From an uncultured Clostridia bacterium (lineage in GTDB: Bacteria; Bacillota; Clostridia; Monoglobales; Monoglobaceae): DNA of 64,000 nt. The notes beneath the pieces were generated by a model. The model was not told the origin of the DNA and made no database searches. It saw only the letters and a program-made list of their open reading frames with translations. Shown piece after piece: positions 34,200 to 45,237 of the stretch. Every line of letters begins with the position of its first letter. Within the stretch, counting starts at the first letter, position 1. The translations under genes and the position numbers were made by a program. The stretch is from the NCBI GenBank assembly GCA_947631965.1, contig CANRNL010000004.1, forward strand, positions 1 to 64,000. Direction: 5' to 3'.

Positions 34200-34275
34200 G
34201 ACCCATTAGCTCAGCTGGCAGAGCACTTGACTTTTAATCAAGGTGTCCGGGGTTCGAGTCTCCGATGGGTCACCA
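34200..34275 (+). tRNA. tRNA-Lys(TTT)
   Basis: The acceptor GACCCAT pairs with ATGGGTC, the anticodon loop CTTTTAA gives anticodon TTT, and CCA is encoded. Last in the operon. Confidence 0.97.
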
Positions 34276-34280
34276 AAAAC

Positions 34281-34318
34281 AATCCGAACTCTTCACATAT
34301 CGGTGAATGGTTCGGATT
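34281..34318. terminator. terminator of the tRNA operon, shared with the opposite-strand RNA locus
   Basis: AATCCGAAC pairs with GTTCGGATT, extended inside by TTCAC with GTGAA. TTTTTGTTT follows on the plus strand and TTGTTTTTGG on the minus strand, so it can stop transcription from either side. Confidence 0.9.
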
Positions 34319-34367
34319 TTTGTTTATGCCGAATCGATTTGACATACAGCTATATTCTCTCTCAAAT

Positions 34368-34479
34368 AAAAGAAGGTGCTGCGCCGACGTTGTTTCCTCA
34401 GCCCAAAACGAGGACATTCCGCAAGTGAATCCCCAACTGTATAAGTGGTTGGCAATTATTAACAAAACGTCCCCGCCTG
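34368..34479 (-). ncRNA. candidate small RNA, unit 4 of a tandem array
   Basis: The region begins 7 nt after a near-consensus promoter. By eye the RNA folds as a closed multi-branch: GACGTT(TT)GTT near its 5' end pairs with AACAACGTC near its 3' end, enclosing hairpins CCAAC/GTTGG, ATTC/GAAT and CCTC/GAGG. The end is set at a T-rich run, but transcription could continue to the strong shared terminator at 34281-34318. An open frame of 75 codons crosses it without a ribosome site. Confidence 0.55.
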
Positions 34480-34485
34480 TCCCCC

Positions 34486-34514
34486 ACTATACCACAAGCC
34501 AAGAGCGGTGTCAA
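34486..34514 (-). promoter_or_regulatory. promoter of small RNA unit 4
   Basis: Minus-strand TTGACA (34514-34509), 17 nt, TATAGT (34491-34486). All 29 bases are identical to the promoter at 34650-34678. Confidence 0.85.
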
Positions 34515-34550
34515 TGGTGATATGCGGAAACTCGGATTGCTTCGGCGTAT

Positions 34551-34643
34551 AAAAAGAAAGCCGCAGAGCAGCAAGCACTGATAATGCGGGATAACCCGCC
34601 CCAGTCGAACGCCCAAGACGTAGATGCTGATACGACTTTTACT
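34551..34643 (-). ncRNA. candidate small RNA, unit 3 of a tandem array
   Basis: About 93 nt between a near-consensus promoter and a clear intrinsic terminator (GCTGC-TCT-GCGGC, then TTTCTTTTT, at 34572-34551). An internal perfect hairpin GCGGG-TTAT-CCCGC lies at 34586-34599. No start codon with a ribosome site is seen. This unit has the best-defined 3' end of the four. Confidence 0.65.
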
Positions 34644-34649
34644 AACTCT

Positions 34650-34678
34650 ACTATACCACAAGCCAAGAGCGGTGTCAA
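34650..34678 (-). promoter_or_regulatory. promoter of small RNA unit 3
   Basis: Minus-strand TTGACA (34678-34673), 17 nt, TATAGT (34655-34650). Identical over the full 29 bp, spacer included, to that of unit 4, while both flanks differ. Confidence 0.85.
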
Positions 34679-34709
34679 CGACAATTCGGGAACGATATAA
34701 ATTTTCGAT

Positions 34710-34781
34710 AAAAGAAGAATCCAAGAATTACTCAGGGGTCTTAGGCTCCAATTGCCTAAAATCTTCAGCAAACTCAGGTTC
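34710..34781 (-). ncRNA. candidate small RNA, unit 2 of a tandem array
   Basis: About 72 nt. It contains the hairpin TTAGGC-AATTGGA-GCCTAA (34759-34741), the same loop as in unit 1 on a stem that differs by a compensated pair. It ends near CTTCTTTTAT, but a convincing terminator stem is not visible, so the 3' end is uncertain. Confidence 0.55.
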
Positions 34782-34787
34782 AATATC

Positions 34788-34816
34788 ATTTTACACAAAG
34801 GCAAATATGTTGTCAA
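34788..34816 (-). promoter_or_regulatory. promoter of small RNA unit 2
   Basis: Minus-strand TTGACA (34816-34811), 17 nt, TAAAAT (34793-34788). Confidence 0.8.
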
Positions 34817-34861
34817 GGGTGATTCTGTCGAAATCCCAAAAACAATAAAAAATTTTCGAAT

Positions 34862-34937
34862 AAAAAAAGAAGTCCGGCGTGGCCGCAAAGCAGAGGGCTC
34901 CAATTGCCCAAGCTGGCAAGACACCACACTTGACTCT
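34862..34937 (-). ncRNA. candidate small RNA, unit 1 of a tandem array
   Basis: About 76 nt. It contains the hairpin GGGC-AATTGGA-GCCC (34909-34895) and ends with a short GC-rich stem (CGGC-CAC-GCCG) then ACTTCTTTTTTT, a fair intrinsic terminator. No ATG is present in the unit. It is first in the array; bases 34973-35079 upstream hold no further promoter of this kind. Confidence 0.62.
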
Positions 34938-34943
34938 GATAAC

Positions 34944-34972
34944 AGTATACTCGCAAAACAGGATATTGTCAA
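34944..34972 (-). promoter_or_regulatory. promoter of small RNA unit 1
   Basis: Minus-strand TTGACA (34972-34967), 17 nt, TATACT (34949-34944). Confidence 0.85.
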
Positions 34973-35139: not shown

Positions 35140-35493
35140 ATGGTTAAATTTATATGCTATCCGAAATGCTCGACCTGCAAAAAGGCGCAGGAGTGGCTGG
35201 AGCAAAACGGAATAGAGTACGAAATCCGCGACATCAAAAGCGACAACCCGACCTACGACGAGCTTAAGGGCTGGTACGAAAAAAGCGGTCTGCCGCTGAA
35301 AAAATTTTTTAATACGAGCGGAATGTTGTACCGTTCAATGGAGCTAAAGGACAAGCTGCCCGATATGAGCGAGGATGAACAGCTCACCCTGCTCGCGTCG
35401 GACGGAATGATGGTAAAGCGTCCCATCGCGGCGGACGGAGATACCGTTCTTGTCGGATTTAACGCGGACAAACGGGAAAAGCTAAAAAAATAA
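35140..35493 (+). CDS. ArsC/Spx family thioredoxin-fold protein
   Basis: 117 residues, alone in its transcript. The N-terminal CxxC (CSTC in YPKCSTCKKAQEWL) and the later conserved block VKRPIAADGDTVLVGF define the ArsC/Spx/YffB fold. Members are arsenate reductases or, as Spx, regulators that bind RNA polymerase under thiol stress. Spx-specific features, such as the RxxR contact region, are not evident, and no arsenic genes are near, so the role is open. AAAGGAG precedes the ATG. Confidence 0.85.
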   Translation: MVKFICYPKCSTCKKAQEWLEQNGIEYEIRDIKSDNPTYDELKGWYEKSGLPLKKFFNTSGMLYRSMELKDKLPDMSEDEQLTLLASDGMMVKRPIAADGDTVLVGFNADKREKLKK

Positions 35494-45068: not shown

Positions 45069-45202
45069 GCAAAACACCTCCAAAAAACTAATACGCGAAA
45101 AGCTAAGCCTTCCGCGTATATTCAAACGAATATTAGGTTCGAATATTAAGTTGCTGCCCTTTCGCTGCGCGCTGAGGGGAGAAGCGGAAACCTCTGCTTT
45201 AC
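45069..45202 (-). promoter_or_regulatory. L20-type leader of the infC operon
   Basis: About 134 nt. It contains an AATATTC/GAATAT hairpin, then ATACGCG pairing with CGCGTAT (with inner GCTTAGC), followed by TTAGTTTTTT directly before the ribosome site. This is the terminator arm of the autoregulatory L20 leader known from Bacillus. L20 excess should favour termination. Confidence 0.75.
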
Positions 45203-45208
45203 CCAAAT

Positions 45209-45237
45209 ATTATAGTATCGCGCCGTGCGTTTGTCAA
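45209..45237 (-). promoter_or_regulatory. promoter of infC-rpmI-rplT
   Basis: Minus-strand TTGACA (45237-45232), a 17-nt spacer, TATAAT (45214-45209): a perfect consensus. Confidence 0.92.

Follow-up and report, generated by a model that had tools for sequence, protein, structure and literature searches.

Candidate RNA antitoxins against phage BECR-fold nuclease domains in a tandem array of small RNA genes from a Clostridia bacterium

Relation to described toxin–antitoxin systems

The type III toxin–antitoxin systems (ToxIN, CptIN and TenpIN) resemble the RNA units described here in that a structured RNA with separate promoter and termination is expected to neutralise an RNase toxin, and in their links to phage conflict (PMC4627078, PMC3475682). 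They differ in that their RNA is a repeat array which precedes, on the same strand, a small toxin gene with a different fold, whereas here single RNAs lie antisense inside the genes of multidomain BECR effectors and, in addition, in orphan arrays. The RNA is found not upstream of the toxin on its own strand but antisense at the 3' end of the toxin domain, and it belongs to no known type III RNA or Rfam family. Binding and inhibition of the toxin protein, as in type III, is suggested here by the conserved loop and the orphan arrays. Type I systems likewise have an antisense RNA gene overlapping the toxin gene and a promoter within the locus, but their toxins are mostly small hydrophobic peptides, whereas here conservation extends to the fold and loop of the RNA itself, and the domain, predicted to be a nuclease, is delivered in protein form. 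Overlap of an antisense RNA with a toxin gene was seen at the cognate loci and not for the array in the window (the whole analysed stretch of 64,000 nt, positions 1 to 64,000 of contig CANRNL010000004.1), and no small hydrophobic peptide toxin is involved, MuF_C, PBECR3 and LPD3 being parts of large proteins. Because each class has one tested defining feature that these loci lack, membership of neither type I nor type III can be claimed. A predicted BECR-nuclease partner is identified by curated profiles for MuF_C and PBECR3.

MuF and polymorphic toxin systems with immunity genes are also phage-borne effector domains that need self-protection; immunity was sought there in small downstream proteins, whereas here it would reside in a nested antisense RNA (PMC5576092). 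In the case of the phiTE pseudo-ToxI, an RNA tames a nuclease in a phage–host conflict, as we propose here, but it protects the phage from a host toxin, whereas here bacteria hold RNAs paired with the phage's own nuclease domains (PMC3475682). AbiF with its RNA antitoxin offers another likeness, in that the toxin is encoded on prophages in Clostridia and has a structured RNA as its partner, but it has a different fold and serves as an abortive system that protects the host, and its RNA is adjacent and not nested antisense (PMC12373285). In the part of the literature that we covered, no RNA partner of MuF or PBECR domains was found. As far as this search shows, the gene architecture is undescribed; the RNAs would act in the manner of RNA antitoxins.

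The array in the window

The array lies on the minus strand (34370-34972) and is flanked by a five-gene tRNA operon on one side and an ArsC/Spx-like gene at 35140 on the other. As far as we see, the adjoining tRNA operon is no part of the system. Past it, a palindromic terminator-like element (TCCGAACCATTCACCGATATGTGAAGAGTTCGGA, 34281-34325) is present, which is repeated many times, on either strand, in genomes throughout the family and class.

The promoter pattern TTGACA-N17-TAWANT was found at 11 sites in the 64 kb, compared to 0.06 expected in shuffles, and four of these 11 sites make up the array. The earlier note had described these four minus-strand promoters with exact 17-nt spacers and start-to-start distances of 156, 138 and 164 bp, without a protein gene on that strand to account for the units. 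All of this, including the positions, was reproduced. When promoter, closing stem and T-run were required together, five window sites remained at ≥11/12, four of which are the array units and the fifth an infC-like leader. The latter (45100-45237, minus strand) is an ordinary consensus promoter and structured leader ahead of an infC-like (IF3) gene. The array units are about 75–90 nt long and fold, as had been claimed, with z-scores of -2.0, -1.6, -2.2 and -3.7 for units 1–4 (-3.73 for unit 4). They end in a long closing stem followed by a T-run and not in a short hairpin, which is why a simple terminator scan finds only one terminator among them; the earlier note had likewise seen one clear terminator.

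The promoter of unit 1 (34944-34972, minus strand; TTGACA-17-TATACT) precedes RNA 1 (34861-34937, minus), a type-A, MuF_C-linked RNA in which a GGGC/GCCC stem carries the loop AAUUGGA and a closing stem and T-run are present. RNA 1 scored 66.6 bits (E 4.7e-15) against covariance model R1, whose seed does not contain it, and is 88% identical to an RNA antisense to MuF_C on contig C27 of the same genome. Unit 2 (promoter 34788-34816, minus, TTGACA-17-TAAAAT; RNA 2 at 34709-34785, minus) is a divergent type A with 20.6 bits (E 0.01) against R1, and its core AGGCAAUUGGAGCCU is identical in the MuF_C-antisense RNA of genome G004 (locus L181). In unit 3 (promoter 34650-34678, minus, TTGACA-17-TATAGT), RNA 3 (34552-34643, minus) carries the motif CGUCUUGGGCG of the PBECR3-linked family and is 89% identical to an RNA of genome G006 that lies antisense to the end of PBECR3; it scored 73.2 bits against model R2, of which it is itself a seed member. 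The promoter of unit 4 (34486-34514, minus, TTGACA-17-TATAGT) is identical to that of unit 3 over 29 nt. RNA 4 (34400-34479, minus) has a long closing stem, and its extent is the least certain of the four, with T-runs both near 34405 and near 34370 as candidate 3' ends. Relatives were found for units 1–3; RNA 4 matched neither R1 nor R2 and has no known partner domain. Judged by sequence, units 1 and 2 are one RNA type and unit 3 is another. Within the window, no MuF_C-like domain was found on the strand opposite units 1 and 2, nor any counterpart of the G006 PBECR3 frame.

RNA families and their partner domains

The Rfam search proposed in the earlier note gave no match to the units in Rfam 15, at gathering or at relaxed thresholds. 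Two new structured RNA families, both strongly covarying, were identified. For the 17 type-A sequences that align without gaps (out of an initial 29), 84.8% of the cells pair (65.6% in shuffles), both sides have changed in 15 of the 22 pairs, and the covariation score is 0.496 compared to 0.162 in shuffles. For the unit-3 family these values were 85.3% (shuffles 69.9%), 11 of 19 pairs, and 0.444 (shuffles 0.201), respectively. The type-A pairing signal was lost when the arms were slid by 1–3 columns, a control that somewhat favours the structures since both consensus structures were derived from the same sequences that were tested. Wobble pairs lie on the antisense strand, with 72 GU against 25 AC in the model-fitted alignment, where the fit leans the same way, and 26 against 13 in an unfitted alignment. 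The conserved hairpin element has the loop RAUUGNA in most MuF_C-type RNAs and the motif CGUYUYGGRCG in the PBECR3 type; loop or motif is fixed per RNA type, while the stem varies freely yet stays paired. Two other readings of these elements were considered: mimicry of tRNA by the 7-nt loop found no evidence, and mimicry of a CRISPR repeat by one L034/L035 unit (GTTTTAGAGCT) was dropped, as the sequence belongs to a hairpin.

The type-A core GGGCAAUUGNAGCCC with its closing stem is present in Clostridia, Bacilli, Synergistaceae, Aeromonas, Pectobacterium, Brenneria and E. coli prophages, as well as in Stenotrophomonas, Rhodospirillales, Syntrophus, Neisseriales, Verrucomicrobiales and one IMG/VR contig. 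Together with the covariation and the conserved promoters, these relatives in many phyla bear out the description of the units as separately promoted, structured small RNAs. Phage and plasmid collections gave no match by DNA similarity because the stems diverge; a search by protein succeeded. Paired, adjoining type-A motifs were observed at four loci (L127 4686-4820, L099 2811-2948, L045 22-256 and L167 1501-1807). At L127 and L099 a T-run follows the second motif only, a pattern that may reflect one transcript with two binding sites.

According to Pfam matches above the curated cut-offs, the domain whose end has the RNA antisense to it is MuF_C (PF18819) for type A and PBECR3 (PF18812) for the unit-3 type. 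The host proteins are polyvalent proteins of up to about 3500 residues in prophages and phages. With a local MuF_C profile, the end of MuF_C was seen to overlap the RNA 3' end by about 1–31 nt at more than 20 loci from several phyla. MuF-C, which has been classed as PBECR, and the PBECR domains are predicted to be RNases of the BECR fold and are believed to enter the cell together with the phage DNA by injection (PMC5512222). An antisense unit was scored where a promoter of ≥10/12 with a 17-nt spacer, a stem and a T-run occurred with the -35 box 60–200 nt past the domain end. Such units were present at 26 of 36 polyvalent domains (9/11 MuF_C, 4/6 PBECR3 and 13/19 LPD3), a count drawn from genomes sampled by protein family and including a few loci that are copies of one element. 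At the same position on the sense strand the count was 0/36, and in the control set of solo BECR genes (PBECR3/PBECR4) an antisense unit was found in 1 of 42. Ten of the 36 polyvalent domains had no unit at this threshold. Moreover, three phages found through MuF_C protein similarity alone, PhiR5_2 (host K-12 MG1655), Pmp11 (Pasteurella) and phi296, all had the RNA at the predicted place, with scores of 41.1, 25.2 and 59.1 bits, respectively. The RNA promoter in the E. coli phages is weak (TTGCGA/TATTTT).

Different domain families carry different RNA families, with further RNA types at LPD3. The earlier note inferred a regulatory RNA family, for which no support was found; the units fall into at least two families, each tied to a different predicted phage nuclease domain, which points to toxin neutralisation. 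The LPD3-linked RNAs (L243, L238, L253, L242 and L254) are diverse, seem to have a GGG(U/C)UWAAG-like motif in common, and probably constitute one or more further families. In genome G167 the LPD3 match coincides with a PBECR3 match, and LPD3 may hence be a relative. MuF_C, PBECR3 and LPD3 are predicted to be toxic. The MuF_C domains keep an invariant His and other polar residues, which suggests active enzymes. Their structure model reached a pLDDT of 87, and its best PDB matches, among them a CDI toxin and an MqsR/MqsA entry at E about 0.1, were not significant.

The genome of the window itself holds a 3478-residue polyvalent frame with two LPD3, ART-PolyVal and MuF_C (G000:C27, locus L033, 1192-11625), and type-A and other RNA units lie antisense in the linkers of this gene. 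The threat could plausibly come from this frame. At L034 (5330-5520) and L033 (6250-6445), a longer RNA recurs that is made of two halves resembling each other (GGGAAGCACUUCCUGAACC / GGGAAGUGCUUUCCGAACC); it occurs both in an array on the chromosome and in a polyvalent gene, within its LPD3 linker.

Orphan arrays and competing explanations

The window array and similar arrays in G001, G006, G013, G029 and G038 are toxin-free or decayed. Related regions contain many tandem units of several unrelated RNA types, each with a promoter with a 17-nt spacer, an RNA of about 75–90 nt, a long closing stem and a T-run. For several arrays, tRNA genes are found no more than a few kb away (window 34200-34275; L040 697-876; L037 10043-10242), which would be consistent with their having come from decayed prophages that had integrated at these places.

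Polymorphic toxins are known to have orphan immunity genes. We propose, with a probability of roughly 0.6, that the units are RNA antitoxins against BECR-fold nuclease domains of phage polyvalent proteins, kept as orphan immunity arrays. Each unit would be a separately transcribed antitoxin against one class of BECR-fold domain. In the phage or prophage, the RNA gene is nested antisense at the 3' end of its own nuclease-domain coding sequence, with a sigma-70-type promoter of its own within the interdomain linker. The RNA folds into a closed stem presenting the conserved hairpin element. This element probably serves as a pseudo-substrate to which the cognate domain binds and by which it is blocked, a mechanism proposed on the model of type III antitoxins. 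In the orphan arrays, the RNA genes have been retained on the chromosome without toxins, probably from decayed prophages, and would shield the cell from domains that incoming phages inject or resident ones produce. Delivery of the nuclease domain is believed to occur in protein form, so that protection of a lysogen or bystander must act on the protein.

The main rival is antisense control of the type I kind, in which the RNA would pair with the mRNA of the toxin domain in its 3' part, so that this mRNA is translated less or becomes less stable in the cell that makes it, and orphan copies would silence related mRNAs in trans. The nested antisense position makes cognate RNAs complementary to the toxin mRNA, and unit 1, which shares 88% identity with the RNA strand where MuF_C ends elsewhere in this genome, is largely complementary to that mRNA. 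A precedent is SR6 of B. subtilis, an antisense antitoxin overlapping the 3' end of a toxin (PMC5848175). We nevertheless consider this explanation rather unlikely: the RNAs have a covarying fold that antisense action would not need, their loops are fixed while the stems vary freely, the orphan copies diverge from any single target, and pairing with mRNA could have no effect on a toxin injected as a protein.

With lower probability, the RNA could be a positive partner of the polyvalent protein, whose domain would bind it as a cofactor, as a guide or as cargo to be packaged. This would agree with the conserved loops, with one RNA type per domain type, and with the BECR domain of Mu MuF, which has been described as inactive and possibly RNA-binding (PMC5512222). 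However, arrays that lack the protein gene are then hard to account for, and the invariant His and other polar residues of MuF_C suggest active enzymes.

Equally doubtful is the view that function is confined to the nested copies, the orphan arrays being non-functional relics of polyvalent genes from prophages. In a comparison with G001, unit 2 (RNA plus hexamers) kept 85 of 91 positions without gaps (93%) compared to 57 of 74 with six gaps (77%) for the spacers, a contrast from one unit and one genome pair. Decay alone would also have to account for four intact hexamer pairs with exact 17-nt spacers, and for RNA genes that are whole and closely packed where the toxin coding is gone. On the other hand, array content otherwise differs between the window genome and its close relatives, indicating rapid turnover, a mixed comparison of the G006, G013 and G029 arrays gave no clear difference in conservation between units and spacers, unit 4 has no family assignment, and plus-strand remnants of linker coding are visible.

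It is very improbable that the conservation reflects a protein linker encoded on the plus strand, with the RNA being accidental. The opposite strand is coding in the cognate loci, where a GLQLP-like peptide recurs, but identical hexamers with the 17-nt spacer recur over quite different opposite-strand peptides, and the linker peptide as cause is contradicted by the covariation with its compensatory stem changes, the antisense-unit pairing, orphan copies without a toxin frame, and the conservation of unit 2 above the spacers. Least credible of all are CsrA-sponge RNAs with GGA in hairpin loops, since the GGA in the loops of units 1 and 2 has its G replaced by A, C or T in relatives and no csrA was found in the genome (81% complete).

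The RNA-antitoxin reading would bear on a wider issue. Polyvalent and MuF proteins occur widely as phage effectors, with domains predicted to be RNases, and immunity proteins have so far been no more than a guess as to how the cell that makes them survives. If the reading is true, this survival would be accounted for by an RNA antidote concealed on the antisense strand of the toxin gene, and it would be clear why protein-based annotation overlooked the immunity. We see an even chance that the RNAs constitute a new class of RNA-based immunity, with diverse antidotes nested antisense in the genes of phage-injected nuclease domains and collected into orphan arrays that would confer resistance to the effectors of incoming phages. 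The reading would also add RNA families across several phyla that are missing from Rfam, and bacteria would be shown to maintain arrays of RNA immunity genes.
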